From contig CAJOIF010000015.1 in NCBI GenBank assembly GCA_905234765.1, positions 64,035 to 128,034 on the forward strand: 64,000 nt of DNA. The letters are read 5' to 3'. Below are positions 8,397 through 54,040 of the stretch, piece by piece. Position 1 is the stretch's first letter, and the number at the start of each line of letters is the position of its first letter. The position numbers and the translations under genes were made by a program. This stretch comes from an uncultured Bacteroidales bacterium. GTDB lineage: Bacteria > Bacteroidota > Bacteroidia > Bacteroidales > F082. Below the pieces are notes generated by a model. That model was not told the DNA's origin. It worked only from the letters and a program-made list of their open reading frames with translations, and searched no databases.

Positions 8397-8429
8397 TTTG
8401 GTATCTTTTTCGGAAAAAGTGTATTTTTG
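8397..8429 (+). promoter_or_regulatory. Promoter of ATPase A
   Basis: TTTG at 8397-8400, a 21-nt spacer and TATTTTTG at 8422-8429 match the Bacteroidetes primary promoter. The -7 box is part of the first 33-bp repeat unit, so whatever binds the repeats would cover the promoter. Confidence 0.75.
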
Positions 8430-8488
8430 CCACATAAAATCATAAGAAAAAGTGTATTTTATAGGCATGATTTTTAAGGAAAAAGTGT
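8413..8488 (+). repeat. Three-unit 33-bp array of ATPase A
   Basis: GAAAAAGTGT begins at 8413, 8446 and 8479, an exact 33-bp period. The first two units continue ATTTT and are joined by an A/T-rich linker containing AAAAT or ATTTTT. The unit core AGTGTA is specific to this gene. The array covers the -7 box and the whole leader up to the start codon at 8496. Confidence 0.9.
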
Positions 8489-8495
8489 TAAATAT

Positions 8496-9812
8496 ATGTT
8501 ATTCAGAAAGATAGAAAAAGAAATCAGAGACTATTGCCAGAACAAGCCCAACAAGATTTTGGTCGTTGATGGCGCCCGTCAAGTCGGGAAGTCGTTCATC
8601 ATCCGACATGTCGGGCAGCAAATGTTTGACAACTACATCGAAATCAATCTGTTGGAGGATGCTGATGGGATGCGTTTTTTTGAGTCGGTCAAAACCACGG
8701 AGGATTTCTATTTTCGTTTGAGTTCGGTTGCCAAAGGCAGGTTGGGCAACAAGGAAAACACATTGGTCTTTCTCGATGAGATTCAGGCATATCCGCATAT
8801 TTTCACGATGTTGAAGTTTCTGAAAGCCGAAGACCGTTTTACTTATATTGCCAGCGGCTCGTTGTTAGGCGTGGCATTGGCCAAGTCGGTTTCCATTCCC
8901 ATTGGAAGCATACAAGTAAGTCACATGTATCCGCTTGATTTTGAAGAATTTCTTATAGCCAATGGCATCGGTCAAGAGGTGATTGGTTACTTGCAAAAGC
9001 AATTTGAACAAGAGTTGCCGCTTGACGAGGGTTTTCATTCCAAAATACTCGATTTGTTCAAGAAATATTTGCTGGTGGGAGGTCTTCCCGATGCAATCAA
9101 CACCTATTTGGCGACTACCGATATTGTAGAGGTGAGACGTGTCCAGTTGGAAGTGCATGAATACTATGGTGCAGACGCTTCCCAATATGATATTGCAAAC
9201 AAGTTGAAAATCAAGAATGTATATGATTCCGTACCGTCCAATCTCGAGAATAAACGTAAAAGGGTGTTTGCCAACCGAATCGAAAACAAGAAAGGCAAGC
9301 GTTTCGATGACTATTTGGATGAATTCGATTATTTGGTCAATGCGGGTATTGCTTTGCAGGTGAAGGCCGTGTCGCAGCCCAAGTTCCCGCTTTTGGAATC
9401 GATGCAGAAGAGCCTTTTGAAGCTGTACCTCAATGATGTAGGCATTTTGACTGGACTTTTGTATGGTCGCAATGTGGCCGCCGTGCTTGACGACATCAGA
9501 AGCATCAATTTAGGGTCGGTGTATGAGTCGGTGGTGGCCCAAGAACTTCACGCCCACGGTCATCGGTTGTTTTATTACGACAACAAGAAGCATGGCGAGG
9601 TGGATTTCCTTGTAGAAAGCGATATGCTATTGTCGGTGGTGCCGATTGAGGTGAAGTCGGGCAAGGATTACACTGTCCATAGTGCGCTGACGAACTTCAT
9701 CGCGACGAAAGACTACGGCATCAAAAAGGCATACGTGCTTTCCAACGACCGAAATGTCTTCACGGAAGAAGGGATTACCTATTTGCCTATCTATTATGTG
9801 ATGTTTTTCTGA
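8496..9812 (+). CDS. ATPase A: AAA-type ATPase with DUF4143 nuclease-like C-terminus
   Basis: This 438-residue protein belongs to a large Bacteroidetes ATPase family. Walker A is GARQVGKS at residues 26-33, Walker B LVFLDE at 90-95 and a sensor-like YIASGS at 117-122. The C-terminal DUF4143-type domain carries a restriction-endonuclease-fold signature: GEVDFLV with Asp370, then IEVKSGK with Glu385 and Lys387, all intact. The biochemical role of the family is not established. It is closely related along its length to the proteins at 14524-15906 and 33150-34478. A promoter embedded in a 33-bp repeat array precedes it. No partner gene is adjacent, so it is a single-gene unit. Confidence 0.88.
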   Translation: MLFRKIEKEIRDYCQNKPNKILVVDGARQVGKSFIIRHVGQQMFDNYIEINLLEDADGMRFFESVKTTEDFYFRLSSVAKGRLGNKENTLVFLDEIQAYPHIFTMLKFLKAEDRFTYIASGSLLGVALAKSVSIPIGSIQVSHMYPLDFEEFLIANGIGQEVIGYLQKQFEQELPLDEGFHSKILDLFKKYLLVGGLPDAINTYLATTDIVEVRRVQLEVHEYYGADASQYDIANKLKIKNVYDSVPSNLENKRKRVFANRIENKKGKRFDDYLDEFDYLVNAGIALQVKAVSQPKFPLLESMQKSLLKLYLNDVGILTGLLYGRNVAAVLDDIRSINLGSVYESVVAQELHAHGHRLFYYDNKKHGEVDFLVESDMLLSVVPIEVKSGKDYTVHSALTNFIATKDYGIKKAYVLSNDRNVFTEEGITYLPIYYVMFF

Positions 9813-10072
9813 AGTCGTGAAGCGTATGATGCGGCGAGAGTTGCTCAACGACGGCAAAATGCCTCGAAAAAGGCCTTTCATAAAATCCTGAAAGCAAGCC
9901 TATTGTATTCTATTGGTTTTACTCCCCTTTTGCTCTCCTATTGATCACTTTTTGCATAACTCTGACGTAACTTTATAATAACAAGCACGTGACAACGTTG
10001 TGTGTATAATAAAGGTACGGTGCGCCAACAATGGAGGCGACCCGAAGGCATAACGAAACACAAAAATATCCT

Positions 10073-10780
10073 ATGGCAAAGGTAGAACCCTCACTTATCG
10101 AAGTAATCGGCACCATTGACGACCGAGTCTATTACAAACGTTTCGGCAAATACTATAGCCGCAACAGGGCAAAATCTTTCAATGACCACAAGTCGGAGGC
10201 TCAACTACGGCAACGGGCCCTCTTCAAGGCTATGCAACACACCTCCTCGCTCCTCGGCTCCATACTGCAGCGAGGCCTCTCCAAAGAAGCCCACAGCAAC
10301 GGACATACCGAAGCCAACGAGTTTGCCAGCCTCAACAAGCAACACTTCGTCTTTGACGACGGTCAGGTTCGCATCGACTATCCTCGCCTGCTGCTCTCCA
10401 CAGGTCAGGTAGCCCGGGTGAAGCCCATCCAATGTAGCGCCAACGGTCTCCATGTAGAGCTTCGATTCGACCCATGCCTAAATACCGGCCATTCCTATCC
10501 GGATGATGTGGTCCACATCTACGCCGTCGAGTTTCAAGTAGAGGTCTGCCAACTCGTGGTCAGCGTAAGTCGAGAGTCTGGCAGCGCCGCCTTCGATCTC
10601 CCCGACCTCACTGATGACCCCGACTGCAAATCCACCCCAGTCTTTCACCTATACGCCATCGTTGAGGCTGCCAACACCGCCTGCATCCCCACCCTGTCTA
10701 CCGACGAGAAAAAATCCGACAAAAGCCACCGCAACATCAACAGGCGCGTCTCGCCTACAGTGTTTATTGGCAAGGTGTGA
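10073..10780 (+). CDS. Conserved unknown protein, possibly DUF6266-like
   Basis: A 235-residue protein starts at the ATG giving MAKVEPSLIE; an in-frame upstream ATG at 10031 would add only 14 polar residues. Residues about 1-70 (YKRFGKYYSRNRAKSFNDHK and a basic helix) resemble the start of DUF6266 proteins. The middle and C-terminus form predicted beta-strands. There is no signal peptide or membrane segment. The base composition is richer in G+C than the ATPase gene upstream. The gene stands alone. The assignment rests only on general resemblance, so treat the function as unknown. Confidence 0.6.
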   Translation: MAKVEPSLIEVIGTIDDRVYYKRFGKYYSRNRAKSFNDHKSEAQLRQRALFKAMQHTSSLLGSILQRGLSKEAHSNGHTEANEFASLNKQHFVFDDGQVRIDYPRLLLSTGQVARVKPIQCSANGLHVELRFDPCLNTGHSYPDDVVHIYAVEFQVEVCQLVVSVSRESGSAAFDLPDLTDDPDCKSTPVFHLYAIVEAANTACIPTLSTDEKKSDKSHRNINRRVSPTVFIGKV

Positions 10781-10813
10781 TGGATAAAAACCAAGGTCTC
10801 TCTCTGTAAATTT

Positions 10814-10851
10814 AACTGCAACAACTGCAACAAACTGCAACAAAAAGCAAC
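10814..10851. repeat. Short tandem CTGCAACAA repeats
   Basis: Three imperfect copies of a 9-10 bp unit (AACTGCAACA) and a fourth degenerate one lie directly after the DUF6266-like gene. They probably arose by slippage; no function can be read. Confidence 0.6.
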
Positions 10852-10933
10852 CATTCAATTTGTACACCAATACAAATCAAAGGGTTGTGCTCTTTTTAAA
10901 AATTCATGAAAAATCTCATTCAAATCATTCGTG

Positions 10934-10960
10934 AACCGCATTTTCGCGGTTATACTTTTG
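10934..10960 (+). promoter_or_regulatory. Orphan promoter-like site with a hairpin
   Basis: A 6-bp stem (AACCGC 10934-10939 with GCGGTT 10946-10951) is followed by TACTTTTG at 10953-10960, a good -7 box pointing right. No open frame follows before the pyrE stop at 11020 on the other strand, so any transcript would be non-coding or antisense to pyrE. It may also be a relic. Confidence 0.35.
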
Positions 10961-11019
10961 CGCCGTCAATGCAACCGAGACCCGATGCTTAACCCCGTTC
11001 TTTGACATCTTGAGAACAA

Positions 11020-11667
11020 TTAGTTCCACCGGTCGCTCCAAGCCTGCTGGTCCTTGCGCCATTCCTTCAAGGACTGCACGTCTTCCTCGGAGACATATTT
11101 CTCTTCAACGGCCTTGTGGATCAGCGTCTCGTAGTTCGACAAGGTGACCAACTCACAATTCTTCTCTTCGAAGTTCTTCTTGGCAAGGTCCATCTGGTAG
11201 GTGAAAATGGCCAACATGCCCTTCACCTCAGCACCAGCCTCACGCAAGGCATCGACAGCCATGAGGCTCGACTTGCCCGTGGAGACCAAATCTTCGATAA
11301 CCACCACCGACTGTCCTGGCGTAATGACACCTTCAATCTGGTTTTGCATGCCGTGCGACTTCTTCTCAGAGCGCACATACACGAAGGGAAGTCCCAACTC
11401 CTGGGCCACCAACGCGCCTTGGGCGATGCCACCCGTGGCCACGCCTGCAATCACATCGGGCTTGCCGAAGTTTTGCATCAACTTCTCCACAAACTGCTGT
11501 CGGATATAAGTGCGGACGGCAGGGTAGGAGAGCGTGACGCGGTTGTCGCAATAAATGGGGCTTTTCAGTCCCGAGGCCCAAGTGAACGGGGCTTTCGGGC
11601 TGAGTTTCACGGCCTTGATTTGCAGCAGATGCTGGGCCAATGTCAATGCAGAGTCGTCGTATTTCAT
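11020..11667 (-). CDS. pyrE: Orotate phosphoribosyltransferase
   Basis: This 215-residue enzyme joins orotate to PRPP to make OMP in pyrimidine synthesis. The PRPP-binding motif VVVIEDLVSTGKSS is clear, and so are the flexible-loop segment SEKKSHGMQNQIEG and GVATGGIAQGALVA. The start is the ATG giving MKYDDSALTLAQHLL; a longer frame to 11790 is rejected because it runs through the divergent promoter region. It is transcribed away from the NUDIX gene, with a -7 box on the minus strand at 11719-11712. Confidence 0.95.
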   Translation of the reverse strand: MKYDDSALTLAQHLLQIKAVKLSPKAPFTWASGLKSPIYCDNRVTLSYPAVRTYIRQQFVEKLMQNFGKPDVIAGVATGGIAQGALVAQELGLPFVYVRSEKKSHGMQNQIEGVITPGQSVVVIEDLVSTGKSSLMAVDALREAGAEVKGMLAIFTYQMDLAKKNFEEKNCELVTLSNYETLIHKAVEEKYVSEEDVQSLKEWRKDQQAWSDRWN

Positions 11668-11675
11668 AGTTTTTG

Positions 11676-11719
11676 TATTTTTGTCGTCCACAAACCATTC
11701 AAAACTGGCTACAAATGTA
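11676..11719. promoter_or_regulatory. Divergent promoters of pyrE and the NUDIX gene
   Basis: TATTTTTG at 11676-11683 points right toward the NUDIX gene. TACATTTG on the minus strand (11719-11712) points left toward pyrE. Both match TAnnTTTG and lie in a 47-bp gap or its edge, so the two promoters overlap back to back. Confidence 0.6.
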
Positions 11720-12341
11720 CAAGATTTTTCATGAAAACAAAACATTGGTTTTCCCAAAAATTGAGGGCGATTCTTTGATATTGGGTGCAACGCTCCAAGA
11801 ATCTGACAGATACGATTGCGAGTTGTTGCGCGATTTTTTCCCGGAATGGCTTGACGACCGCGACCCTGGTGACACTTTCATCCACGAAGTGGGCGAAAAT
11901 GCCGTGGTCGAAGCCTTGAAACAGACCTTTAGGATGGCTCCTGCAGCAGGAGGCGTCGTCGTAAAAGACGGTAGATTTGTATGCATCGTGCGTCACGGCA
12001 TTCCTGACTTGCCCAAAGGTCACATCGAGAAAGGCGAGAACCCTGAACAGGCCGCCATACGTGAGGTGGAGGAGGAGACAGGTATCGGCAAGTTGCACAT
12101 CATCAAGGAGTTGCCATCCACTTGGCATTGCTATCAACTCGGTGACGAATGGCGACTGAAATGCACCTATTGGTATCTGATGGAAAGCGAGGGAGTCATT
12201 CAACCTAAGCCCCAGACCGAGGAAAGTATCAGTGAAGTGAAATTCATTGGTGCAGAAGGGATTGACGCGTTCTTGAAAGAAACTTTCCGCTCCATCAGTG
12301 AAATTTTGGGCGAAGATTTGCGTCAGGTCGTGGCAAAATGA
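11715..12341 (+). CDS. NUDIX hydrolase
   Basis: This 208-residue protein has a NUDIX domain in its C-terminal half. The box begins GHIEKGENPEQAA and continues REVEEETGI, giving the full GX5EX7REUXEEXGU pattern that binds the metal for pyrophosphate hydrolysis. The first 75 residues are a non-catalytic extension. The substrate cannot be predicted. The start is the ATG giving MYKIFHENKTL; the in-frame codons further upstream would fall in the -7 box of its own promoter. Confidence 0.85.
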   Translation: MYKIFHENKTLVFPKIEGDSLILGATLQESDRYDCELLRDFFPEWLDDRDPGDTFIHEVGENAVVEALKQTFRMAPAAGGVVVKDGRFVCIVRHGIPDLPKGHIEKGENPEQAAIREVEEETGIGKLHIIKELPSTWHCYQLGDEWRLKCTYWYLMESEGVIQPKPQTEESISEVKFIGAEGIDAFLKETFRSISEILGEDLRQVVAK

Positions 12342-12342
12342 T

Positions 12343-12350
12343 ACTTTTGC
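12343..12350 (+). promoter_or_regulatory. Promoter -7 box of coaD
   Basis: TACTTTTG begins 2 nt after the NUDIX stop codon. It is separated from the coaD start by a palindromic repeat (R1), which therefore lies in the coaD leader. Confidence 0.55.
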
Positions 12351-12362
12351 AGCCGAAAAAAG

Positions 12363-12431
12363 GACACGAGACTACGTGACTGCGGGACTACGAGATAATC
12401 CCGCGTCCCGAAGTCTCGCAGTCTCGCAGTC
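12363..12431. repeat. Palindromic element R1, copy 1
   Basis: GAC-rich left arm (GGACACGAGACT, GACTGCGGGACT) and its inverted right arm (CCCGCGTCCC, GTCTCGCAGTC) can fold into a long hairpin. Related copies lie at 51332-51402 and 52653-52725. This one fills the coaD leader. Confidence 0.8.
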
Positions 12432-12445
12432 AAAAAGAATAAACA

Positions 12446-12916: not shown

Positions 12917-12942
12917 TTCCGCATTTTCCTCGTTTTCACAGC

Positions 12943-14313: not shown

Positions 14314-14325
14314 GTTTTCAAAATC

Positions 14326-14474
14326 GGAAAAAGTCCCTTTTTTGACCCTTAAAATCATGGAAAAAAGTCCCCTTTTTAGGGGTTAAAATATCGGAAAAAG
14401 TCCCTTTTTTGGCTTGAGTTTTTCGGAAAAAGTCCCTTTTTTGGACGTAATTTTATGGAAAAAGTCCCTTTTTG
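14326..14474 (+). repeat. Five-unit array of ATPase B, period about 33 bp
   Basis: GGAAAAAGTCCC-type units begin at 14326, 14359, 14393, 14425 and 14457, with spacings of 33, 34, 32 and 32 bp. Each reads GGAAAAA-GTCCC-TTTTT. The linkers vary but usually contain AAAAT or ATTTT. The array starts 12 nt after the stop of the redoxin-like gene and ends in the -33 region of ATPase B. Confidence 0.92.
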
Positions 14475-14523: not shown

Positions 14524-15906
14524 ATGCTGTACAGGAAGTTTGAAAAGCGCATTGAAAATTTCTTTCAAGAAGAGCCAAATAAGATTCTTTTGGTGAATGG
14601 TGCCAGACAGATAGGCAAGTCGTATCTCATCCGATATGTCGGCAAAAGGATGTTCAAGAACTACATCGAAATCAACCTCAAGGAAGACAAGGAAAGCCTG
14701 GGTGTTTTTGCCAACGTAAAAAGCACCAATGATTTTTACATTCAGTTGGGTGCCATTGCCGGCAACCGTCTCGACACCAAGGAAAACACTTTGGTCTTTT
14801 TGGACGAGATCCAGAGCTATCCCCATTTGATGACGATGTTGAAGTTTTTGAACCAAGAGGGGCGATACACTTACGTGGCCAGTGGCTCGCAATTGGGTGT
14901 AGCCTTATCGGAAACCGCATCTGTGCCTATTGGTAGTGTCGAGATTGAAGAGATGTATCCTCTTGACTTCGAAGAGTTTCTATTAGCCATGGGTTGTGGA
15001 CAAGAAACCATCGAGAGCATAAGGGAAAAGTTCCTTGCAGGTGAGGCATTGAACGAATCATTGCACAACTACATGATGCAGCAGTTCAAAACCTATCTGT
15101 TGGTGGGAGGATTGCCCGAAGCCATCAACAAGTTCTTGAAAAACAGAAATATGGCTCATGTCAGGAAGGTGCATCGCGACATCCATGAGCTTTATAGAAT
15201 CGACGCTTCGCAATACGATACAGAGAAGAAATTGCTGATTCGGAAGATTTACGACATGATTCCGTCCGTCATGGAAAACAAAAAGAAGCGAATTGTTGTG
15301 AAGCGCATCGAGGAAACCTCCAGCCACAAGCAGTTCAGTGACTATGCCAACGAGTTTGAGTACCTGACCAATTCTGGCATTGCCCTCGGTGTGCAAGCTG
15401 TCAGCAATCCAAGATTTCCATTGTTGGAATCGGAAAGCAAAAACTTGCTCAAGCTATACATAAATGATGTAGGCCTACTGACAAACATCCTTTACGGCCT
15501 CAACATCAACGCCGTGCTACGAGACGAGCGGAGCATCAACCTTGGCTCGGTGTATGAGACTGTGGTGGCGCAAGAACTCCACGCCCACGGTTTTCCGCTG
15601 CATTACTACGACAACAAGCAAAAGGGCGAAGTGGATTTCCTGGTTGACGACTACGAGCACCTGACCGTGCTGCCCATTGAAGTGAAGTCGGGAAAGAACT
15701 ACACCGTTCATAGTGCTTTAAACAATTTCATGAGCACGCCCGACTACCACATCCAAAAAGCCGTAGTATTGAACAATGAGCGGGAAGTCTCTGTAAAAAA
15801 CGGGATTACTTACCTGCCTGTTTATTATTGCATGTTTTATCAGCGGGATTATGTGCAAGACGAGAGGGAATTGGTGATTCCGGAGATAGTGTATTCAGAG
15901 AAATAA
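14524..15906 (+). CDS. ATPase B: AAA-type ATPase with DUF4143 nuclease-like C-terminus
   Basis: A 460-residue paralog of ATPase A and ATPase F. Walker A is GARQIGKS at residues 26-33 and Walker B LVFLDEIQ around 90-97. The C-terminal PD-(D/E)XK-like signature (GEVDFLVDD, then LPIEVKSGKNYTVHSAL) is intact. It carries about 20 extra residues at the C-terminus (DYVQDERELVIPEIVYSEK) that A lacks. A private five-unit repeat array lies directly upstream. It is a stand-alone gene; the role of the family is unproven. Confidence 0.88.
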   Translation: MLYRKFEKRIENFFQEEPNKILLVNGARQIGKSYLIRYVGKRMFKNYIEINLKEDKESLGVFANVKSTNDFYIQLGAIAGNRLDTKENTLVFLDEIQSYPHLMTMLKFLNQEGRYTYVASGSQLGVALSETASVPIGSVEIEEMYPLDFEEFLLAMGCGQETIESIREKFLAGEALNESLHNYMMQQFKTYLLVGGLPEAINKFLKNRNMAHVRKVHRDIHELYRIDASQYDTEKKLLIRKIYDMIPSVMENKKKRIVVKRIEETSSHKQFSDYANEFEYLTNSGIALGVQAVSNPRFPLLESESKNLLKLYINDVGLLTNILYGLNINAVLRDERSINLGSVYETVVAQELHAHGFPLHYYDNKQKGEVDFLVDDYEHLTVLPIEVKSGKNYTVHSALNNFMSTPDYHIQKAVVLNNEREVSVKNGITYLPVYYCMFYQRDYVQDERELVIPEIVYSEK

Positions 15907-23044: not shown

Positions 23045-24310
23045 TCATTGTTGCTCCAAAGAAACACTCCACTTCGCCACAGGCACAACATCTATCCTAA
23101 ACCCATCTTTCTCTATAATGCGCTCCTCGTTGCTCGTCACTATGGCAAGATTGCTGCAATTCAGTTCCTCTGCACATTCTATGAGGCTGTCCACCTCACG
23201 TTTTTCCGTCTTGGCGTTGCTCATATCATAGCAGACCTGCACTAATTGTTCTATGTGCGTGCCTTTACGCAAGACGAAATCCACTTCCTTGTCGTTGCGC
23301 GAACGATAATAAAACATGGTCTTATCGGTGTCATACCCCTGCCGCAACAACTCGACAAACACCTGGTTTTCAAGCAGACGTCCTAAATTATCACTCAAAG
23401 AGAACGCTTTGGCAGCAACAAAGCCGTTGTCAACCACATAGACTTTCCGAGGTGACTTCTTCATCAACTTCAGCTTGTTGTTGTAACGCGGTAGATAATA
23501 GAACAGGTAAGGCTCGTGCAGATAGTCCATGAACTTCTTGGTGGTATTCACACTGGAGAAGCCTAATTCTTCTGTCAGCTCATTGGCACTTACGGGATTG
23601 CAGAAATTAGAGACCAGATACAGAGCCAGGTCATTTAAGTCCGTGACGTTTCTGACACTATGGCGCTTGGCCACATCTTTCCACACGATGGAATCAAACA
23701 AGGTATCAAGGTAGGTGCGTGTCAACTGGCGCGATGCCACCACCTCCGGATAGCCGCCATTCCTCAGATAGTCGTCCATCAACGCAGAGACGTCTGCTTG
23801 TTGCTCAAGATTCAACTTACTGAGATCCAGTTTATTCCAATCGAAAAACTCCTCAAGACTGAAAGGCAACATCTCAACCTTTAGGTACTTCCCCGTCAGC
23901 GCCGTAGCCATCTCGCTCGAAAGCATCTTGGCATTGCTTCCCGTAATGACAAGGTTTTTCCCCAACCTATATAGCTCACTAACCCAAAGATCCCACGCCT
24001 CAAGGTTTTGAACTTCATCGAGCAATAGGTACTCGTAACCCGGGTACACATCATCCAGCATCCGCATGACCAGGTCGGCATCCCAAGCATCCAACAGCTG
24101 CTGACTATCGAAGTTCAAATAGGCAAAATTCCTGTTTCGCAACATCAGCAATGCCTGCGTAGATTTGCCCACACGCCGAGGTCCCGTTATCAACTTGATA
24201 AGGTGGCTGTTCAGCAACAAATCCATATCTTGGTTGCTCCGACGTTCCAGATAAGGGCGCGAAAGCAGTTCGTCACGCTCTTTTCGTTGATTCTGAAGGA
24301 TAGTCTTCAT
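23045..24310 (-). CDS. ATPase C: AAA_14/DUF4143-type ATPase
   Basis: A 421-residue ATPase from a different branch than A, B and F. Walker A is GPRRVGKST at residues 43-51. Walker B is YLLLDEVQN, followed by VITGSNAKM, the sensor segment of the AAA_14 family. Near the C-terminus KEVDFVLRKG keeps the first acidic residue of the nuclease-like fold, but the expected E-x-K strand reads LVQVCYDM, so nuclease activity is probably lost. A promoter embedded in a tandem repeat of about 42 bp precedes it. Confidence 0.88.
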   Translation of the reverse strand: MKTILQNQRKERDELLSRPYLERRSNQDMDLLLNSHLIKLITGPRRVGKSTQALLMLRNRNFAYLNFDSQQLLDAWDADLVMRMLDDVYPGYEYLLLDEVQNLEAWDLWVSELYRLGKNLVITGSNAKMLSSEMATALTGKYLKVEMLPFSLEEFFDWNKLDLSKLNLEQQADVSALMDDYLRNGGYPEVVASRQLTRTYLDTLFDSIVWKDVAKRHSVRNVTDLNDLALYLVSNFCNPVSANELTEELGFSSVNTTKKFMDYLHEPYLFYYLPRYNNKLKLMKKSPRKVYVVDNGFVAAKAFSLSDNLGRLLENQVFVELLRQGYDTDKTMFYYRSRNDKEVDFVLRKGTHIEQLVQVCYDMSNAKTEKREVDSLIECAEELNCSNLAIVTSNEERIIEKDGFRIDVVPVAKWSVSLEQQ

Positions 24311-24333
24311 GTTCTTTCATCTAATTTCGCTGA

Positions 24334-24341
24334 CAAAAATA
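24334..24341 (-). promoter_or_regulatory. Promoter -7 box of ATPase C
   Basis: TATTTTTG on the minus strand, 23 nt before the start codon and inside the promoter-proximal repeat unit. Confidence 0.65.
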
Positions 24342-24416
24342 CGACTTTTTATTCAATTTATGCGTTCTATTGCACAAAAAACATACTTTTTTATGCAGTA
24401 CAGCGTATTTATTGCA
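24334..24416 (-). repeat. Two-unit 41/42-bp tandem repeat of ATPase C
   Basis: Units at 24334-24374 and 24375-24416 align end to end. Both begin CAAAAA on the plus strand, contain ACTTTTT near the middle and end ATTGCA. Read toward the gene, each contains AAAAA, a short GT-rich core and TTTTTG, similar to the ATPase A unit. The promoter-proximal copy contains the -7 box at 24341-24334. Confidence 0.7.
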
Positions 24417-24524
24417 TAAAATTGGAAATTTACATGGTGATTTGTATTGGTTGCATCGTAAAGTTTAGAACTGCTGTTTTTCTGACTTTTTGTCGCTTTT
24501 TTCCCACCATTCAAGGAAATTCCG

Positions 24525-33149: not shown

Positions 33150-34478
33150 TCAGAGAGCAGTTCCTAAAAACATCACATCATAAACCGGCATATAGGTCAC
33201 GCTGTCCTTTACTTCAACGGTTCCTTCGTTGCAGAACACGATGGCGTTTTTCACGGAATAATCCTCATTTTCAATGAAATGATCCAAAGCACTATGCACA
33301 TAATAATCTTTTCCCGATTTGATTTCCAACGGCAATACTGAAAGATGCTCATAGTCGTCGATGAGGAAATCGACTTCGCCTTTTTTCTTGTTGTCGTAAT
33401 AGAACAACTTGAAGCCATGCGCCTTCAGTTCTTGCGCCACCGCCGATTCGTACACCGTTCCCAAATTCACGCTGCACTCGTCATTCAAAATCGGATTGAT
33501 GTTGTTTCGATAGAGGATGCCCGTCAAAATGCCGACATCGTTGAGATACAACTTCAACAAGTTCTTGCTCATCGACTCGACGAGTGGGAAAACTGGTGTC
33601 GAAATGGCCTTCACATCAAGGGCGATGCCCGAAGCAATCAGATAATCGAACTCGTCTTGATAGTCCTTGAAACGCTTGCTGTCCATTCCTTCAATGTCGC
33701 GGGCAACGATGCGCTTCTTCTTGTTTTCCAATACCGAAGGAATCATGTCATAGATACGCCTGATTTTCAGACGGTTTTCTTGGTCATATTTTGAAGCATC
33801 AATGCCGTAATACTCATGGATTTGGCCTTGGATTTGTCGTACGGTAGCTATATTAGTGTCGTTCACAAACGACTGCACCGCTTCGGGCAATCCCCCAACC
33901 AACAAATACTTGCGGAACAGGTCCATCATCCGCCGATGTAAACTCTCTTGCAGGCTTTTCTTGGCCAAAAACATCTCGTGACAATGGCTGATGAACTCTT
34001 CGCCCACGCCATTTGCCCAAAGGAACTCCTCAAAATCAAGCGGATAAAGATGGCGCACTTCAATACTTCCCATAGGGATGGAAAGCGTCTTGAACAAGGT
34101 GATGCCCAACTCCGAACCACTGGCAATGTAGGTATAGCGGTTGTCCTGATTAAGGAATTTGAGCAAAGTGAGCAAATGCGGATAAGCCTGAATCTCATCG
34201 AGAAAGACCAAAGTGTCCTCCTTGCTGCCCAACTTTTCTCCTGCCAAAGCACTCAGTTGTAGGTAAAAACCCGCAACCGATTTCGCATCGGCAAAGTTCC
34301 GCTCGTTCAGACTGTCGTCCAACAAGTTGATTTCCACATAGTTCTTGAACATCCGCTGTCCAACTTGACGGATGATGAAGGTCTTTCCCGTCTGTCGGGC
34401 ACCGTCCAAAATCAGGATTTTCTGCGGTCGTGGAGCCAAGAAATCCTCAATGTAAGCCTCTATTTTTCGCTTCAGCAT
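33150..34478 (-). CDS. ATPase F: AAA-type ATPase with DUF4143 nuclease-like C-terminus
   Basis: A 442-residue paralog of A and B, starting MLKRKIEAYIEDFLAP. The in-frame ATG at 34511 (reading MYFCGKI) is a translation of the promoter -7 box and is rejected. Walker A GARQTGKT is at residues 26-33, Walker B LVFLDEIQ follows, and GEVDFLIDD with LEIKSGKDY give an intact D...E-x-K nuclease-like signature. A private 33-bp repeat array lies upstream, between this gene and the divergent DUF4249 lipoprotein gene. Confidence 0.88.
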   Translation of the reverse strand: MLKRKIEAYIEDFLAPRPQKILILDGARQTGKTFIIRQVGQRMFKNYVEINLLDDSLNERNFADAKSVAGFYLQLSALAGEKLGSKEDTLVFLDEIQAYPHLLTLLKFLNQDNRYTYIASGSELGITLFKTLSIPMGSIEVRHLYPLDFEEFLWANGVGEEFISHCHEMFLAKKSLQESLHRRMMDLFRKYLLVGGLPEAVQSFVNDTNIATVRQIQGQIHEYYGIDASKYDQENRLKIRRIYDMIPSVLENKKKRIVARDIEGMDSKRFKDYQDEFDYLIASGIALDVKAISTPVFPLVESMSKNLLKLYLNDVGILTGILYRNNINPILNDECSVNLGTVYESAVAQELKAHGFKLFYYDNKKKGEVDFLIDDYEHLSVLPLEIKSGKDYYVHSALDHFIENEDYSVKNAIVFCNEGTVEVKDSVTYMPVYDVMFLGTAL

Positions 34479-34500: not shown

Positions 34501-34530
34501 CAAAAATACATATTTTCAGTGAATTACAAA
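34501..34530 (-). promoter_or_regulatory. Promoter of ATPase F
   Basis: On the minus strand TTTG (34530-34527), an 18-nt spacer and TATTTTTG (34508-34501) match the Bacteroidetes promoter. The repeat array begins just upstream of the TTTG. Confidence 0.7.
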
Positions 34531-34532: not shown

Positions 34533-34616
34533 AAAAACTGCGTTTTCCTATAAAATTCACTTTTAAAAAACTGCGTTTTCCTATAAAATTTGGCTCCAAA
34601 AAACTGCGTTTTCCGA
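34533..34616 (-). repeat. Three-unit 33-bp array of ATPase F
   Basis: The plus-strand CTGCG core begins at 34538, 34571 and 34604, an exact 33-bp period. On the coding strand each unit reads GGAAAA-CGCAG-TTTTT (the third starts CGGAAAA). Linkers vary (GGAGCCAA or AAAAGTGA) and end ATTTTATA. The core differs from those of A, B and G. Confidence 0.92.
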
Positions 34617-47949: not shown

Positions 47950-47953
47950 AGTT

Positions 47954-48923: not shown

Positions 48924-48987
48924 GAGGTTCGGGTTTTAATTCAAAATGTAACGCGATTCGTTTTGATTTATTGCGCTATAATGGCGG

Positions 48988-48995
48988 CAAAAATA
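48988..48995 (-). promoter_or_regulatory. Promoter -7 box of porT
   Basis: TATTTTTG on the minus strand, 64 nt before the start. Confidence 0.6.
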
Positions 48996-49012
48996 GGAAA
49001 AAAGGCAATGTG

Positions 49013-49708: not shown

Positions 49709-50708
49709 GACCGACCAGTTTTTCAATGATTTGGCTCGGTGTGATGCCGTTTAAGCAAGCGTAATCACCTCTGAAACAAGGCTTATTGCCGTAAACAGAG
49801 CATGGCCGACAAGGCAGATCGACTTGGATGCAATCATTTGGGTTTTGTTTCCAGCCCAAGAAGCCCGCGTAAAGATGCGTTTCACCCCAAACGGAAACGA
49901 CTCTCGTCCCGACCAAAGATGCCAAGTGCATGTTGGCGGAGTCCATAGAGAGCATTACATCCAATTGGCCCATCAAAGCAAGTTCGCCTTTCAAACCTTG
50001 CTGACTTTGTGCTGGTTGCACATTGGGATATTTGGCGTGTAGTTCCGCGATTTGCCGTTTTTCCTCTTCGCCGCCGCCAAAAAGGAATATAGTAGTGTTT
50101 TCCCTCTGACTCAAAGCCTTGATGACTTCTTCCATTTTCTCCATAGGGTAAACTTTGGCGGGATGTTTGGCAAAAGGCGCAATGCCAATCCATGTCTCAT
50201 TAGTCGCTTTTTGCGTCTCGCAAAAAGAAGAATAGTCAAGCTTTGTGAATTGTGGTTTAATTGGGAAACCTAGTTCTTCCAATACTTTAGCATAACGCTC
50301 AAACGAGGTGGCCTGCTGCTCGAAAACCTTGTTTTTTTGCCGCGTTAAAGCCTTTTTCCCTTTGCGTCCCTTGTCGATGACGGCAATTTGCCACCCCGAC
50401 ATTCGACAGTTTAATCTCAGTAGAATGGAGCGTAATACATTATGGAAGTCGGCGACGCGGTCAAATTCTTCGTAGAGGATTTCTCTTATAAGACGATTTA
50501 AGCCCCAAAAGCCTTTGTGCCGACCTTTCAGGTCAGCAGCGAAGAAATGCACATTGTTGGGCAAGAGTTCAAATAAAGGTCTCGCCATCTCTCGGCTGAG
50601 TATGGTGATGTCCCAATCGGGGTATTGTGTGGCCATGTCATAGACGACAGGCACCGTCATGGCGATGTCGCCCAAGGCCGAGAACCGTATGACAAGGAGC
50701 TTTTTCAT
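49701..50708 (-). CDS. Glycosyltransferase family 9 (heptosyltransferase-like)
   Basis: A 335-residue GT-B enzyme opening MKKLLVIRFSALGDIAMTVP. The donor side holds WIGIAPFAKHPAKVYPMEKM, FLFGGGEEEKRQIAEL and LMGQLDVMLSMDSANMHLAS, the normal GT9 pattern. It probably adds a sugar to the lipopolysaccharide core. It overlaps the DUF4254 gene by 4 nt and ubiE by 8 nt. The pairing with DUF4254 is common in Bacteroidetes. Confidence 0.88.
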   Translation of the reverse strand: MKKLLVIRFSALGDIAMTVPVVYDMATQYPDWDITILSREMARPLFELLPNNVHFFAADLKGRHKGFWGLNRLIREILYEEFDRVADFHNVLRSILLRLNCRMSGWQIAVIDKGRKGKKALTRQKNKVFEQQATSFERYAKVLEELGFPIKPQFTKLDYSSFCETQKATNETWIGIAPFAKHPAKVYPMEKMEEVIKALSQRENTTIFLFGGGEEEKRQIAELHAKYPNVQPAQSQQGLKGELALMGQLDVMLSMDSANMHLASLVGTRVVSVWGETHLYAGFLGWKQNPNDCIQVDLPCRPCSVYGNKPCFRGDYACLNGITPSQIIEKLVGHE

Positions 50709-51316
50709 TTTTGCCCGTAAAGCACCGGATTGAGTGCGGGGTCGTTGTACATCTTCATCTGCTTATAGACCTTCATTACCTTTTCGCCCTTCTTGTAACA
50801 CTCCATCAGCTGGTCGATGGCGGTGCAAAGGTCAGTGTTTTGCTCTTGTAAAACACGCAGTTTTTCCTCACATTTCGCCTTGTGTTCCTCGCTGACATCG
50901 GCGCGCTCCACCTCGGCCTTCATGTGGTAAATTTTCAGTTGCAGAATCGAAAGGCGGTCAATGGCCCAAGCGGGACTTTCCGTGTTGAGCGTGGCATTGG
51001 GCTGTGGTTCAACCTTTTGGAAAAGCAGTTGGTAATAGCCGTCAATCATCTCCACGATGTCGGTGCGGTCTTGGTTCGACTTGTCGATACGGCGTTTCAA
51101 GGCCAAGGCCGCCACTGGATCGATATTTGGGTCACGGATGAGGTCTTCCAAATGCCACTGCACCGTGTCAATCCACGCCTTATTATAAAGGTACCATTCG
51201 ATGGTCAGTTTCTCGTAAGGGTTTTCGCAAGGATGGTCCACGTCGTCAAACTTGTGGTAGTCGGCGATGGCTTGGTTGAAGATGGGGAGGATGGGTTCGG
51301 TGGAAAGGATGATCAT
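50705..51316 (-). CDS. DUF4254 protein
   Basis: The 203-residue, mostly helical protein contains ENPYEKLTIEWYLYNKAWID, WHLEDLIRDPNIDP and ALKRRIDKSNQDRTDIVEMI, typical of DUF4254. The function is unknown. It overlaps the GT9 gene (ATGA), so the two are probably translated together and act in the same lipopolysaccharide step. Confidence 0.82.
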   Translation of the reverse strand: MIILSTEPILPIFNQAIADYHKFDDVDHPCENPYEKLTIEWYLYNKAWIDTVQWHLEDLIRDPNIDPVAALALKRRIDKSNQDRTDIVEMIDGYYQLLFQKVEPQPNATLNTESPAWAIDRLSILQLKIYHMKAEVERADVSEEHKAKCEEKLRVLQEQNTDLCTAIDQLMECYKKGEKVMKVYKQMKMYNDPALNPVLYGQK

Positions 51317-51331
51317 GGCAGATGATTTTAT

Positions 51332-51402
51332 GACACGGGACGCGGGACTTCAGGACATGGGACAACCCTGTCTCGCAGTCTCGCGTCTCGCAGTCTCGCG
51401 TC
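51332..51402. repeat. Palindromic element R1, copy 2
   Basis: GACACGGGACGCGGGACT left arm and a duplicated GTCTCGCAGTCTCGCGTC right arm. It begins 16 nt upstream of the DUF4254 start and ends 3 nt from the aspC stop. Confidence 0.8.
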
Positions 51403-51405
51403 TTT

Positions 51406-52554
51406 TTAGTGCAGCTTGGTCAACGCGGCCTTGATGCGCTTCACTGCCTCGATGAGTTTGTCCTCGGAGGTCGCATACGACAGGCGGATGCAGTCGTCGT
51501 TGCCGAAGGCGTTACCGGCCACGCAAGCCACATGGGCGTTGTAAAGCAGCCACATGCAGAGGTCGTCGCTGCCCTTGATGACGGTCTCGCCGTCGGTCTT
51601 GCCGTAGAACGACTTCATTTCGGGGAACACGTAGAAGGCACCAGCGGGAGTGTTGCATTTCACGCCAGGAATCTCGTTCAGCAGCTTCACGAAGGTGTCG
51701 CGGCGGTGGCGGAAGGCCTTCAGCATCTCTTGGATTTCCGTGGAGTTCTCGGGGCTGAGTTCCATGGCCTTGGCAGCGGCGGCTTGTGCAATGGTGCAGA
51801 TGCCGGAGGTGATTTGGCCTTGGATCTTGTTGGTGGCTTTCACAATGGCTTGGGGAGCAGCGATGTATCCGATACGCCAACCCGTCATAGCATAGCCTTT
51901 GGCAACGCCGTTGACGAGAACAAGGCGGTCCTTCAGGAACTCGAACTGGCCCATAGTCTCGTGCTTTTGTTCATATTGTATGAACTCATAGATTTCATCG
52001 GAGATGATAATGATGTTCGGGTATTTTCTCAACACTTCGGCAATGGCGGTAAGTTCGGCTTTGGTGAAGACGCTGCCGCTGGGGTTGCAAGGCGTGTTGA
52101 GCATGAAGACCTTGGTCTTGGGTGTGATGGCCTTTTCGAGTTGCTCGGCAGTAACCTTGAAGTCGTGCTCGATGTCGCTCTTGATGATGACGGGCACGCC
52201 GCCAGCCAACTTCACCATTTCGGGGTAGGACACCCAGAACGGCGCGGGAATGATGACCTCGTCGCCGTCGTTGACGACAGCCAGCAGCACGTTGTTGATG
52301 GCCTGCTTGGCGCCGTTGGAAACCAGAACGTCGGTGTCCTTGTAGTCGAGGCCGTTGTCGCGTTTCAGTTTGTTGGCGATGGCCTTGCGCAGTGCGGGTG
52401 TGCCAGGTACAGGCGGGTAGTGCGTGTCGTTATTGTTGACGGCATTGATACCGGCTTGTTTGGCCGATTCGGGCGTGTTGAAGTCGGGTTCGCCGATGCT
52501 CAGGCTGATGACGTCGATGCCTTGGGCCTTCAGCTCGCGGCTCTTGTTGGTCAT
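51406..52554 (-). CDS. aspC: Aspartate/aromatic aminotransferase, 5' end frameshifted
   Basis: A PLP-dependent class I aminotransferase of 382 residues. It has the PLP lysine segment GVAKGYAMTGWRIGYI, the NTPCNPSGSVF loop and the substrate Arg segment near CIRLSYATSEDKLIEA. The visible frame begins MTNKSRELKAQGIDVISLSI, about 20 residues short of the family start. The missing part is encoded just upstream in another frame (52612-52570: MSEIILSNRVLNMAE). A 2-nt deletion or 1-nt insertion near 52570 restores a normal N-terminus. This is either a real truncation or a sequence error. The gene would then run to 52612. Confidence 0.9.
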   Translation of the reverse strand: MTNKSRELKAQGIDVISLSIGEPDFNTPESAKQAGINAVNNNDTHYPPVPGTPALRKAIANKLKRDNGLDYKDTDVLVSNGAKQAINNVLLAVVNDGDEVIIPAPFWVSYPEMVKLAGGVPVIIKSDIEHDFKVTAEQLEKAITPKTKVFMLNTPCNPSGSVFTKAELTAIAEVLRKYPNIIIISDEIYEFIQYEQKHETMGQFEFLKDRLVLVNGVAKGYAMTGWRIGYIAAPQAIVKATNKIQGQITSGICTIAQAAAAKAMELSPENSTEIQEMLKAFRHRRDTFVKLLNEIPGVKCNTPAGAFYVFPEMKSFYGKTDGETVIKGSDDLCMWLLYNAHVACVAGNAFGNDDCIRLSYATSEDKLIEAVKRIKAALTKLH

Positions 52555-52652
52555 GGCCAGCGTTGCACTCAGCCATGTTCAAAACTCTGTTGGAAAGGAT
52601 GATTTCGCTCATGATTTATGTTTAAATGTTGATTGTTTAATTGTTGTTGTTT

Positions 52653-52725
52653 GACGCGAGACTTCGAGACGCGAGACACGGGACTTTTTGTTGTCTCGTA
52701 GTCCCGTGTCCCGCAGTCCCGCGTC
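52653..52725. repeat. Palindromic element R1, copy 3
   Basis: GACGCGAGACTTCGAGACG left arm and TAGTCCCGTGTCCCGCAGTC right arm are inverted around TTTTTGTTG. It lies in the aspC leader, between the -7 box and the start codon. Confidence 0.82.
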
Positions 52726-52735
52726 TTTGAAAGGG

Positions 52736-52743
52736 CAAAGGTA
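52736..52743 (-). promoter_or_regulatory. Promoter -7 box of aspC
   Basis: TACCTTTG on the minus strand. R1 copy 3 separates it from the coding start. Confidence 0.55.
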
Positions 52744-52792
52744 AGCCTTTTTTCGATAGGGTCGGCAGAATAACGCGAAAAATAGAATATGC

Positions 52793-52894
52793 GTGCTAAA
52801 TCCCCGAAATTTTCCGAGTTTTAGCTATAAAATAGCGATTCGAGTGCTAAAACAGTAAAAAAGTGACGGTTTTAGCTACTGAATCCGAAACTTT
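52793..52894 (+). repeat. Two-unit 51-bp repeat before the EcsC-like gene
   Basis: GTGCTAAA begins at 52793 and 52844, and TTTTAGCTA at 52819 and 52870: both pairs are 51 bp apart. GCTAAA and TTTAGC are inverted arms within each unit, as in the 53-bp unit of ATPase D. The sequence between the arms is not conserved. The array ends just before the -7 box. Confidence 0.75.
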
Positions 52895-52897
52895 TCG

Positions 52898-52905
52898 TAG
52901 TTTTG
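52898..52905 (+). promoter_or_regulatory. Promoter -7 box of the EcsC-like gene
   Basis: TAGTTTTG fits TAnnTTTG and lies 32 nt before the start codon, immediately after the 51-bp repeats. Confidence 0.6.
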
Positions 52906-52937
52906 CCCAAAATAGATATTTTTTGAAAATACAAAAT

Positions 52938-53636
52938 ATGTCAACGTCATTTGTGGAAAAAGCAATTAAAGCGGCAATGAACCTTCCTGGGGTGAAAGTA
53001 GATCGTGATGGTTTTTTGCAGAATAATTTCCGAAAATATGGGAATTCGGAACAATTGAGTTCCAAAAGTACTCGTGAGATTTACGGTGACAAAGAAATAG
53101 ATGAAGTTGCTAAAGCTGTTGTTAAGCGTCATATAACAGAAGTAACAGCTTTATCTGCTGCATCTGGATTGCCAGGTGGTTTATGGGCGATTCCTGCATC
53201 AATTGGAGACCTTTCAAATTTTTATGCTCAACTGTTAATTACAGCACAAAAACTTGCGTATGTCTATGGAATGCCTGATATTTTAGATGGAAAAGATGAT
53301 TTGGATGAAAACGCATACCAAACATTAATTGTTTTGTTAGGCGTGGCTGCTGGAGTGGAAGGAGCTAGTCAAATGTTTGCTAAAATTGCTCAAGGAGCGG
53401 TAAAACAATATGCAAAAAAAATAGCAGCAAAACCAGCTTCTAATATGATTAAGCAAATCGTTACAAAAATACTTGAGTTTTTGGGAAAGAAGTCAACAGA
53501 TAAAGCGGTGGAAGGTTTTATTAAAAAATCAATTCCTGGTGTATCAGCTATAATTTCAGGTGCTTTGACTTATGCATCATTTAGGCCGATGACTAAAAGA
53601 TTGAAGAAAGAACTTAAGAAGGATATAGTTTTATAA
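52938..53636 (+). CDS. EcsC-like protein
   Basis: A 232-residue protein starting MSTSFVEKAIKAAMNLPGVK. The middle has ALSAASGLPGGLWAIPASIG and DLSNFYAQLLITAQKLAYVYG, which resemble the glycine-rich core of EcsC-family proteins. Two hydrophobic amphipathic stretches (about 150-165 and 210-225) suggest membrane association. The gene is AT-rich. EcsC-like proteins have no settled function. It stands alone and carries a promoter-proximal repeat pair like the ATPase genes. Confidence 0.6.
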   Translation: MSTSFVEKAIKAAMNLPGVKVDRDGFLQNNFRKYGNSEQLSSKSTREIYGDKEIDEVAKAVVKRHITEVTALSAASGLPGGLWAIPASIGDLSNFYAQLLITAQKLAYVYGMPDILDGKDDLDENAYQTLIVLLGVAAGVEGASQMFAKIAQGAVKQYAKKIAAKPASNMIKQIVTKILEFLGKKSTDKAVEGFIKKSIPGVSAIISGALTYASFRPMTKRLKKELKKDIVL

Positions 53637-53688
53637 AAATGGAGAAATTCCTCTGAAGTATGGTTTCCAGTTAATATAAGGTGGTGAA

Positions 53689-53850
53689 CTATAAATACGC
53701 CGCATAATACACCGGCAAACAAGTAACAACCTCGTCTTTTAGATAGTCCTTGGTATAAAGCAAAATGCGCTCGCCAATGCGCGAAGGATATTTTTTGCAG
53801 AACTCGTCCAAGGATTTGTGGAGATTATAAGGGCGTTGTTTTACTTGTAA
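53689..53850 (-). pseudogene. ATPase G remnant (DUF4143-type C-terminus)
   Basis: On the minus strand the segment reads RPYNLHKSLDEFCKKYPSRI, then GERILLYTKDYLKDE and TCLPVYYAAYL with a stop. This is the typical last 50 residues of DUF4143 ATPases. In-frame stops appear about 20 codons upstream, and neither Walker motif is present. An orphan 33-bp repeat array lies upstream of it (53909-54040), where the array of a complete ATPase gene would be. The body of the gene has evidently been deleted. Confidence 0.8.
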
Positions 53851-53908
53851 AAATTGAAAAATTGTAATCTACTGTATATCTTTTTGTTAATACATATTTT
53901 TCAATTAT

Positions 53909-54040
53909 CGCAAAATGTTTTTCGCCTAAAACTGCACTTTTCGCAAAATCTTTTTCGGCTGAAACGACAGTTTTCGCAAAATCTTTTTCGTCCAAAACTG
54001 CACTTTTCGCAAAATGTTTGTTGGTCAAAAACGGCCTGAA
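53909..54040 (-). repeat. Four-unit 33-bp array of ATPase remnant G
   Basis: CGCAAAAT begins at 53909, 53942, 53975 and 54008, an exact 33-bp period. On the strand of the remnant, units read GAAAA-GTGCAG-TTTT, with one variant CTGTCG core, followed by a linker ending ATTTTGC. The fourth unit is degenerate. Because 33 is divisible by three, the array stays open in one frame and gives a false repeated peptide. Confidence 0.92.

Follow-up and report, generated by a model that had tools for sequence, protein, structure and literature searches.

The DNA analysed here (the window) is a 64,000-nucleotide stretch from an uncultured Bacteroidales bacterium, and it contains three genes (A, B and F) for related ATPases with a DUF4143 domain, along with the remnant of a fourth (G). 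A tandem array lies upstream of each. The original prediction held that each array has a shared scaffold and a core of its own, and that each protein recognises its own repeat, which raises the question of whether core and protein are paired beyond these loci and what the arrays do.

The three proteins are 59-61% identical to each other and match the PDC-S01 profile PDLC04792 over its full length (E 4e-177, 6e-183 and 3e-176 for A, B and F, respectively); PDC-S01 is the same protein family. According to the available parts of two accounts, PDC-S01 is a very abundant candidate defence family, present in rumen genomes too, in which an ATPase is fused to PD-(D/E)XK, and those parts are silent on cis arrays, on any code, and on autoregulation or mobility (PMC12988326, PMC13356809). 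We found no report of such arrays in the open-licence PMC literature.

Arrays and proteins in the window

Copy positions and period tests confirmed periodic arrays of about 33 bp at A, B, F and remnant G (Table 1). Copies start at 8412, 8445 and 8478 in array A, at 34614, 34581 and 34548 (minus strand) in array F, and at 14326, 14360, 14393, 14425 and 14457 in array B, whose spacing is 34/33/32/32 rather than the 33/34/32/32 first given. For A, B and F the observed period value was reached by none of 200 dinucleotide shuffles of each array; array G was outside this test, its period of 33 being that reported by Tandem Repeats Finder. The window has 10 occurrences of GGAAAA-N6-TTTT (0.82 expected; none of 100 shuffles reached 10), eight of them inside arrays A, B and F. 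As to the claim of an identical core throughout each array, copy 3 of array A reads AGTGTT instead of AGTGTA, and the claim fails for the middle copy of array G, whose core is different. The start of gene F, previously placed at 34511, is probably 34478, as judged from alignment.

Table 1. Array loci and associated features of the window
Feature	Position	Strand	Details
Array A, 3 copies of GGAAAAAGTGTA	8412..8495	+	33/33 bp; ends at gene A start codon
Gene A: AAA_14 ATPase + winged helix + DUF4143 (PD-(D/E)XK-like fold)	8496..9812	+	438 aa; Arg269
34-bp clpB fragment, directly 3' of gene A	9816..9849	+	94% identical to relatives' clpB 3' region
Array B, 5 copies of GGAAAAAGTCCC	14326..14473	+	directly upstream of promoter
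Gene B: AAA_14 + DUF4143	14524..15906	+	460 aa; Gln269 equivalent
Distant superfamily member	23045..24310	-	~23% identical over a part; PADLOC PDC-S01 model PDLC04787
Gene F: AAA_14 + DUF4143	33150..34478	-	start from alignment; Arg269 equivalent
Array F, 3 copies of GGAAAACGCAG	34533..34614	-	33/33 bp
Remnant G, C-terminal	53692..53850	-	weak match (E 0.86), last ~55 family residues only
Array G	53908..54019	-	33/33 bp; core GTGCAG in 2 copies, middle copy differs

Pfam assigns only AAA_14 (above cut-off) and DUF4143 to A, B and F, which carry Walker A and B motifs (GARQxGK and FLDEIQ) and fit the P-loop fold. In the PD-(D/E)XK motif as we assign it across 92 sequences, E344 and K387 are invariant and D370 and E385 are present in at least 90%. 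The DUF4143 domain also has the fold expected of the PD-(D/E)XK nuclease superfamily and is a candidate nuclease. An AF2 model (pLDDT 91) has a helix at 270-283 followed by two strands, resembling a winged helix. Its fold neighbours are CED-4/NLR, Orc1/Cdc6 and the archaeal ATPases 2qen (PABY2304) and 2fna (SSO1545), the last two at only 13-16% identity, and by this model the protein is predicted to be an AAA+ ATPase of the STAND/archaeal-ATPase/Orc1-Cdc6 type.

Arrays among relatives

The phenomenon is more general than the four loci first noted. In upstream regions of close and distant relatives, a period of 32-34 rose above shuffling in 77 of 81 testable cases (78 relatives plus A, B and F), the best lag being 33 in 59 of them and 32 in 16. 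Genomes carry 24-58 DUF4143 matches each. Two rumen Bacteroidales genomes have clear arrays at 59 of 94 DUF4143 genes, compared with 5 of 200 other genes, while the remaining 35 are without a clear array by the score used. Periods in these genomes are mostly 32-34 bp, with 22-23 in some subfamilies; the 33-bp period noted for the arrays of the window is not general to all paralogs, two subfamilies having 22-23 bp. Loci were found in long contigs and in plasmids. Of eight plasmid records, two have clear arrays, Collinsella (L220) and Agathobacter (L224). Weaker ones occur in three: Vibrio (L217) has three palindromic copies, Vescimonas (L223) has two seen by eye, and Bacteroides (L221) has two, likewise seen by eye, at a spacing of 66 bp. 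The Acinetobacter (L218), Fusobacterium (L219) and Ruminococcus (L222) records gave no convincing array.

Across 80 arrays, core columns 6-10 have an identity of 0.90-0.99 within arrays and 0.26-0.51 between them, and identity at linker columns 17-24 is 0.26-0.40 within arrays, near chance (columns 1-3 score 1.0 by construction, as the anchor requires GAA; the fourth copy in L023-type arrays and the fifth in L044 are spurious or weak). Given that linkers have diverged and cores have not, the copies are not recent duplicates, and selection would therefore be keeping one core per array. Neutral tandem repeats or chance might be suspected in such A/T-rich upstream regions, but the shuffle, column-identity and motif-count controls exclude this, and the survival of cores beside linkers at near-chance identity reduces it to a negligible prospect. 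The arrays were also rejected as CRISPR arrays: conservation within an array extends to only about 12-16 of its 33 columns, and there are no near-identical full-length repeats.

Core sequence tracks residue 269

Repeat units matched at 11 or more of 12 positions in 98% of 173 pairs of at least 85% protein identity, in 44% of 239 pairs at 70-85%, and in about 10% of pairs at 50-70%. In a covariation scan the top column was residue 269, which sits where the recognition helix of the predicted winged helix begins. Its effect of 0.70 was equalled by none of 1000 label shuffles (95% point of the shuffle maxima, 0.34), in a scan that itself selected the residue, with shuffles that ignore phylogeny, L059 and L072 left out, labels set by hand for L006, L069 and L077, and L008 assigned to the TTCT class from its pattern. 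Among 88 rows, R goes with YGY in 43 (a loose class, defined after the training set had been seen), Q with TCCC, TCCT or TGAC in 32 and T with GTCA in 8; S occurs in 3, and I and H in 1 each. Classes overlap in L076 alone, where CGT occurs within the TCCC unit as well. Rows with T are not monophyletic (p-AU 1.3e-7). Residues 6, 380, 156 and 201, outside the winged helix, also covary above the shuffle line, as expected from shared ancestry. Well-supported independent changes of residue and core are few, with 3/3, 2/2 and 2/2 pairs in the expected direction (sign-test p 0.25-0.5); one of the 3 pairs that differ in YGY shows no difference in R.

The rule was then applied to 22 genes distant from the training genes. 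All 14 with R have YGY, both with T have GTCA, and none of the six with K, H or S has YGY in its core; the R or T genes thus agree in 16 of 16 cases. Cores of five plasmid loci in this set were read by eye. Several of these proteins are orthologs of each other, and their identity is partly 24-33%, which makes the alignment at 269 less sure. L111 and L117 are divergent neighbours whose one common array is counted twice. Cores do track with protein, apparently down to a single residue of the predicted recognition helix. As relatives have arrays and their cores follow the protein, recognition of its own repeat by each protein is a well-supported prediction.

Within one genome cores are mostly private; globally they are not, as GTGTA is widely shared. 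Avoidance of the same core by co-resident genes was not clear: unit matches of at least 11/12 make up 6% (n 48) and 4% (n 23) of same-genome pairs at 50-60% and 60-70% identity, and 8% (n 2007) and 13% (n 1164) of other pairs in the same bins. The GGAAAA scaffold, common to most arrays, is what would be expected if another host protein, a shared factor and not the encoded ATPase, bound them. However, paralogs of the same cell have different cores, these vary together with a residue of the protein encoded beside them, and scaffold and R/YGY pairing recur in records from Bacteroidota, Bacillota, Treponema and Collinsella, so that such a factor is very improbable.

Promoter register and autoregulation

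Arrays keep register with the promoter. In 73 arrays from outside Bacillota and Treponema, the nearest -7 box (TAnnTTTG) is offset from the repeat by 9-11 in 31 (a class in which the place of L044 is unsure, because of its fifth copy), by 40-43, one period on, in 30, by 51-52 in 7 and by 103 in 2; 3 have none. The box of array A lies inside copy 1 of the three. In the Bacillota loci L008, L016, L018 and L063, the TTGAAA of the repeat can be read by eye as a -35 element, with a -10-like hexamer 17 nt on. Because arrays of the GTCCC class lie entirely upstream of the promoter, they may serve in activation or have no regulatory role.

Two cores were searched in three genomes. Seven of the 8 matches to GGAAAAAGTCCC are in arrays at a family gene, as are 6 of the 8 matches to CCGAAAAACGGACA, whose other 2 form an orphan array. 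The one stray match in 16 (genome G005, contig C119; no family gene within 2.2 kb) equals the level of the reversed-pattern control. A regulon was rejected for these two cores, which in the three genomes are otherwise restricted to arrays. Together with the promoter register, this lack of other sites for the two cores lends indirect support to autoregulation by each protein.

We therefore regard it as likely, on sequence evidence, that each protein binds the ~12-bp sites of its own array, with paralog-specific cores, and most likely represses itself. Array and gene would constitute one cassette. The ATPase would bind asymmetric sites spaced one per 32-34 bp, or about three helical turns. Conserved parts of the protein would read the constant GGAAAA, and the recognition helix of the winged helix, chiefly through residue 269, would read the private core. 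Since the array overlaps the promoter of its gene or adjoins it, at a register that is kept, the probable outcome would be repression of the gene, and divergence of cores would allow dozens of paralogs to coexist in a genome without cross-repression. Selection for such coexistence, and a role of ATP and the nuclease, we infer as parts of the same scheme.

The array might instead be a self/non-self mark for a defence nuclease, sequestering or restraining the protein until phage infection or shielding its own locus. The listing of the family as defence candidate PDC-S01 (PMC12988326), the STAND-like fold neighbours of the model and the conserved PD-(D/E)XK residues would all suit such a mark, but the available part of that account describes no PDC-S01 experiment (PMC12988326), and two array patterns sought on viral contigs revealed no cognate arrays, one matching 3 contigs (other repeats, no family gene in the stretches examined) and the other 0. 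We consider this reading unlikely.

Relocation of array and gene

Array and gene have relocated together. Homology blocks run from the first repeat to near the stop codon, with differing flanks; of 29 pairs at least 90% identical, 7 share no flank, 11 share one and 11 both (the pairs are not independent, and 577 with short flanks were dropped). Gene A has no clpB on its left, yet a 34-bp clpB fragment at its end, apparently the scar of an earlier site; the corresponding gene of relatives is ClpB by Pfam. In L003 a complete second cassette separates A from the clpB terminator. In G005, the orphan CCGAAAAACGGACA array directly precedes an L192-type cassette, which has R269 and a GTGTA array of its own, and the best G005 match to L134 (55% identical) is located elsewhere. 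Direct repeats, 25-217 bp where present, flank 8 of 77 loci versus 2 of 408 random placements (Fisher p 1e-5), although the 8 loci amount to about four events (L055 and L074 are one; L002, L038 and L050 have short repeats that are not flush).

These observations would fit an array that serves, like an iteron or a transposon end, as the handling site of a mobile element, at which the AAA+ nuclease assembles to excise, copy or insert the cassette, any promoter effect being secondary. There is, however, no right-end array and no fixed terminal sequence, ordinary recombination at hot spots could give the same pattern, and an end would not need to be locked to a promoter; a search for a clean empty site bearing a fixed target duplication found none. 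Handling of this kind is possible, though we doubt it. A classical DDE-type transposon was rejected, as right ends vary beside the stop codon and the direct repeats are not short and of fixed length.

More speculatively, PDC-S01 genes, at least in Bacteroidales, could be single-gene mobile elements with the array as an incompatibility- or immunity-like identity tag. The protein would load on its own array and limit its own expression, its nuclease would act at or near the tagged DNA during moves, and the coexistence of 24-58 copies per genome would drive a fast-diversifying code centred on one residue.

Relation to known systems

Coexisting related proteins with diverged private sites, and asymmetric repeated sites, are known from temperate-phage repressor/operator heteroimmunity, L5 stoperators and iteron plasmids. 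The private sites are alike; the STAND/Orc-like AAA+ fold, the nuclease-like domain and the mostly chromosomal single-gene cassettes set the present family apart. Orc1/Cdc6 initiators have a winged helix. In haloarchaea, as the available parts of two studies describe, each origin, with its ORB repeats, depends specifically on the co-located cdc6, incompatibility has been reported for an oriC2 plasmid, and origins have evolved or translocated (PMC3936714, PMC3528665). On that description, an AAA+ protein with repeats beside its gene is the common element. Unlike Orc1/Cdc6, A, B and F match AAA_14 and DUF4143, not Cdc6, in Pfam and have a nuclease-like domain; unlike ORBs, their arrays are direct tandem repeats that flank a single gene on one side only, in promoter register, with 24-58 DUF4143 matches per genome. 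The paralog-specific specificity is perhaps best read as resembling phage heteroimmunity or archaeal Cdc6/ORB pairs.

MalT is a STAND transcription regulator. Another, IniR, binds and induces the iniBAC promoter, and the available part of its description predicts for both an AAA+ domain similar to that of SSO1545, with no mention of a private array per paralog or a nuclease domain (PMC5760070). Both differ from the present family in targeting other operons and in their DNA-binding domain.

Significance

PDC-S01 is among the most frequent prokaryotic gene families called defence, and we found no function reported for it. A likely, predicted binding site can now be named for tens of paralogs in each genome, and there is a candidate specificity residue to swap; the order of genes shows joint movement of array and gene. 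Dozens of such genes are present in gut bacteria, and because a single residue of the predicted recognition helix tracks the promoter tag, each protein is probably specific for its own gene, recognising and controlling no other. If true, the family would provide naturally diversified, orthogonal pairs of repressor and operator whose code is easy to read.

Repeat arrays and family genes in the window

Three AAA_14+DUF4143 genes in the window (A, B and F) have arrays, rows of repeats evenly spaced at about 33 bp, upstream of them, and a further array accompanies G, a remnant of such a gene. The array positions given in the original prediction held, with small corrections.

Family genes and remnant in the window
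Feature	Coordinates	Strand	Description
Gene A	8496-9812		AAA_14+DUF4143
Gene B	14524-15906		AAA_14+DUF4143
Gene F	34478-33150	minus	AAA_14+DUF4143
Distant family member	24310-23045	minus	
Remnant G			C-terminal; weak match

The A, B and F proteins are 59-61% identical. For the scaffold pattern of the arrays, GGAAAA-N6-TTTT, 0.82 matches would be expected in 64 kb; there are 10, eight of them within arrays A, B and F. TGCAATA/TTATGCA half-sites lie upstream of the distant member, at 24310-24430; similar sequence adjoins gene B in the right flanks of L042 and L075, two related loci. Cassettes (array plus gene) of the distant type may thus carry, upstream, conserved repeats of a different form. 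Short tandem repeats of the GTCTCGC/GTCCCGC type, unlike the arrays, lie at 12412-12431, 51370-51403 and 52692-52725.

Distribution of the arrays

Scanning the A/B/F alignment against genome contigs yielded 80 loci (the best 80 of 81), 55-95% identical, mainly from Bacteroidales MAGs but also from Bacillota and Treponema. With A, B and F included, 81 of 83 upstream regions were long enough for a periodicity test (L020 and L066 were too short). The 33-bp periodicity sought upstream of relatives is present: at lags 32-34, no more than 2 of 200 dinucleotide shuffles did as well for 77 of the 81, and 78 lay above the 95th percentile set by 177 control stretches. The four that missed the shuffle criterion (L036, L054, L060 and L069) each still have two or three anchored copies.

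Six relatives' genomes (G001-G006) contain 39, 54, 58, 54, 49 and 24 DUF4143 matches. The 97 matches in G003 and G001 gave 95 loci (one contig-edge match was omitted and one region holds two), with a gene obtained in all except L157. Among these 94 genes the best lags, within a range of 20-79, were 33 (37 genes), 32 (20), 34 (4), 23 (7) and 22 (5), others being scattered; lag 23 belongs mostly to the GPKWCGKT type and lag 22 to the GPRQ type. Clear arrays (chain score at least 8) precede 59 of the 94 (37/55 and 22/39 by genome), versus 5 of 200 other-gene upstreams, two of them in L060, home to two further family genes, and, among random stretches, 2 of 126. Repeats at the other 35 are weak, palindromic or absent. 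Eight plasmid records had clear arrays in two cases, weaker ones in three and none in three.

Several arrangements were observed besides. Three family genes lie inside 5 kb in L060, two of them adjacent on opposite strands, and a divergent pair in G003 contig C16 (L111/L117) has a single 22-bp array between the genes, common to both. Palindromic upstream repeats were seen by eye at L128, L183, L116, L172, L162, L164 and L163, all G003/G001 genes, which suggests subfamilies reading inverted rather than direct sites. A family gene resides on a widely shared plasmid type: a 98-kb Bacteroides xylanisolvens plasmid (L221) carries the motif GTGCGGAWAAATGTAT twice, 66 bp apart, and similar matches occur across many plasmids of Bacteroides and Parabacteroides. 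A viral contig (L227) has irregularly spaced TATGTCGGAAAAGTGTAATC repeats and no family gene in the stretch examined.

A shared scaffold with a private core

Cores had been predicted to be the same within an array and different between arrays, and column identities across 80 arrays aligned at GGAA agree: within arrays, columns 6-10 of the core reach an identity of 0.90-0.99, versus 0.26-0.51 between arrays. Linker columns 17-24 are only 0.26-0.40 identical within arrays. From this divergence of the linkers the copies must be old, and the core common to each array's copies is therefore under selection. Relatives at least 85% identical share units in 98% of 173 pairs, and pairs 50-70% identical mostly do not. 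The GTGTA core is widespread and occurs on several deep branches; clades are marked by GTCCC/TTCCC/TTCTC, CGCAG, TGACA and GTCA.

Across G001, G003 and G005, GGAAAAAGTCCC has eight matches, one stray and seven in arrays at B-type genes (L189, L139 and, in G005, a gene sharing 97% identity with L139). CCGAAAAACGGACA also has eight, six in the L185 and L134 arrays and two in an orphan three-copy array of its type in G005 (L228, C104:13200-15200), which lacks a gene of its own. Immediately downstream of the orphan is a complete cassette, with GGAAAAGTGTA three times and an R269 gene 83% identical to L192. G005, a genome that may be incomplete, yielded no close relative of L134; the best match is 55% identical.

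A protein residue that tracks the core

The anticipated covariation of core with protein residues was found, foremost at residue 269 (protein A numbering). Among 34 representatives less than 80% identical, this column was the strongest against core class labels (effect 0.70, 0/1000 label shuffles; 95% of shuffle maxima at 0.34). The 0.34 line was also exceeded at residues 6, 288, 380, 156, 265 and 201. In the aligned loci, R269 accompanies GTGTA, GTGCG and CGCAG; Q, TCCC, TCCT and TGAC; T, GTCA (6/6); S, TTCTC (3); and I, GTTCT (1), with no exceptions.

Of 28 added genes, the six close to training genes all agree. Among the 22 others, R269 goes with a YGY core in 14/14: nine loci (L126, L132, L136, L146, L148, L177, L182, L186, L192) and five on plasmids (L217, L220, L221, L223, L224). 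T269 pairs with GTCAC (L140, L187), K269 with CGGACA (L124, L134, L185) or a mixed GTGGCA-like core (L125), H269 with GTGGT (L191) and S269 with GTTAC (L178). The resulting 2x2 table of R269 versus YGY (14/0 and 0/8, Fisher p 3e-6) involves non-independent genes, cores judged by the analyst and a loose YGY class.

In a tree of 88 rows (six held-out genes included) built without the winged helix, residue 269 changes 10 times and core class 11 times, and a single clade of T269 rows is rejected (p-AU 1.3e-7). Independent pairs with support run in the expected direction in 3/3 (T), 2/2 (R) and 2/2 (Q) cases, and by YGY in 2/3, one pair not differing; both sets are too few for significance.

A structure model (pLDDT 91) places helices at 233-250, 259-262 and 270-283 and strands at 286-292 and 303-312; as modeled, this order is that of a winged helix, placed after the AAA+ domain. 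Residues 265, 269 and 288 fall inside this predicted winged helix, 269 at the start of its recognition helix. Archaeal ATPases, CED-4/NLR proteins and Orc1/Cdc6 are closest in fold; the C-terminal domain weakly resembles restriction-endonuclease-like folds.

Mobility of array and gene

Homology between close relatives is often limited to array plus gene. Across G001-G006, the A gene lies at most about 4 kb from clpB (the L005 gene matches Pfam ClpB_D2-small and Clp_N), with varied inserts between them, that in L003 being a whole second cassette. In L002, L004 and L005, A is followed by a duplicated clpB 3' end. Window A has a different left neighbor, whose product matches BACON below threshold, yet 34 bp of clpB remain downstream of the A stop codon. 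In L002, a short internal-deletion derivative of A lies about 4 kb upstream of the A gene; its array end is joined to the gene end, like remnant G, and a clpB fragment is attached. Direct repeats flank 8 of 77 loci versus 2 of 408 placements, reducing to about four independent, near-flush events (L005, L010, L064 and L055/L074). We take COG1373 to be the family of A, B and F. A published set of horizontal-transfer candidates from gut bacteria includes 19 COG1373 genes (PMC10782964).

Relation to known systems

The family of A, B and F is PDC-S01, a PADLOC candidate defence family. It is ranked fourth in frequency among prokaryotic defences by one account, according to which most such candidates still await validation (PMC12988326), and a rumen survey found no individual locus more often (PMC13356809). 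Our searches of the open-licence PMC literature turned up no mention of such arrays. Archaeal Cdc6/ORB pairs appear similar in architecture and logic, although their Pfam membership differs; archaeal origins are described as dependent on co-located cdc6 genes (PMC3936714).

Register of array and promoter

We located the TAnnTTTG box nearest the gene in 73 arrays (Bacillota and Treponema left out). It starts 9-11 nt after a repeat start in 31 (L044 on a weak copy) and at 40-43 nt, one period later, in 30; offsets of 51-52 occur in seven and 103 in two, and the box is absent in three. At L008, L016, L018 and L063, the repeat itself provides TTGAAA, and a -10-like hexamer follows 17 nt later (by eye). 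This register of box and repeat implies that array and promoter are coupled, and autorepression would be the simplest basis for that coupling.
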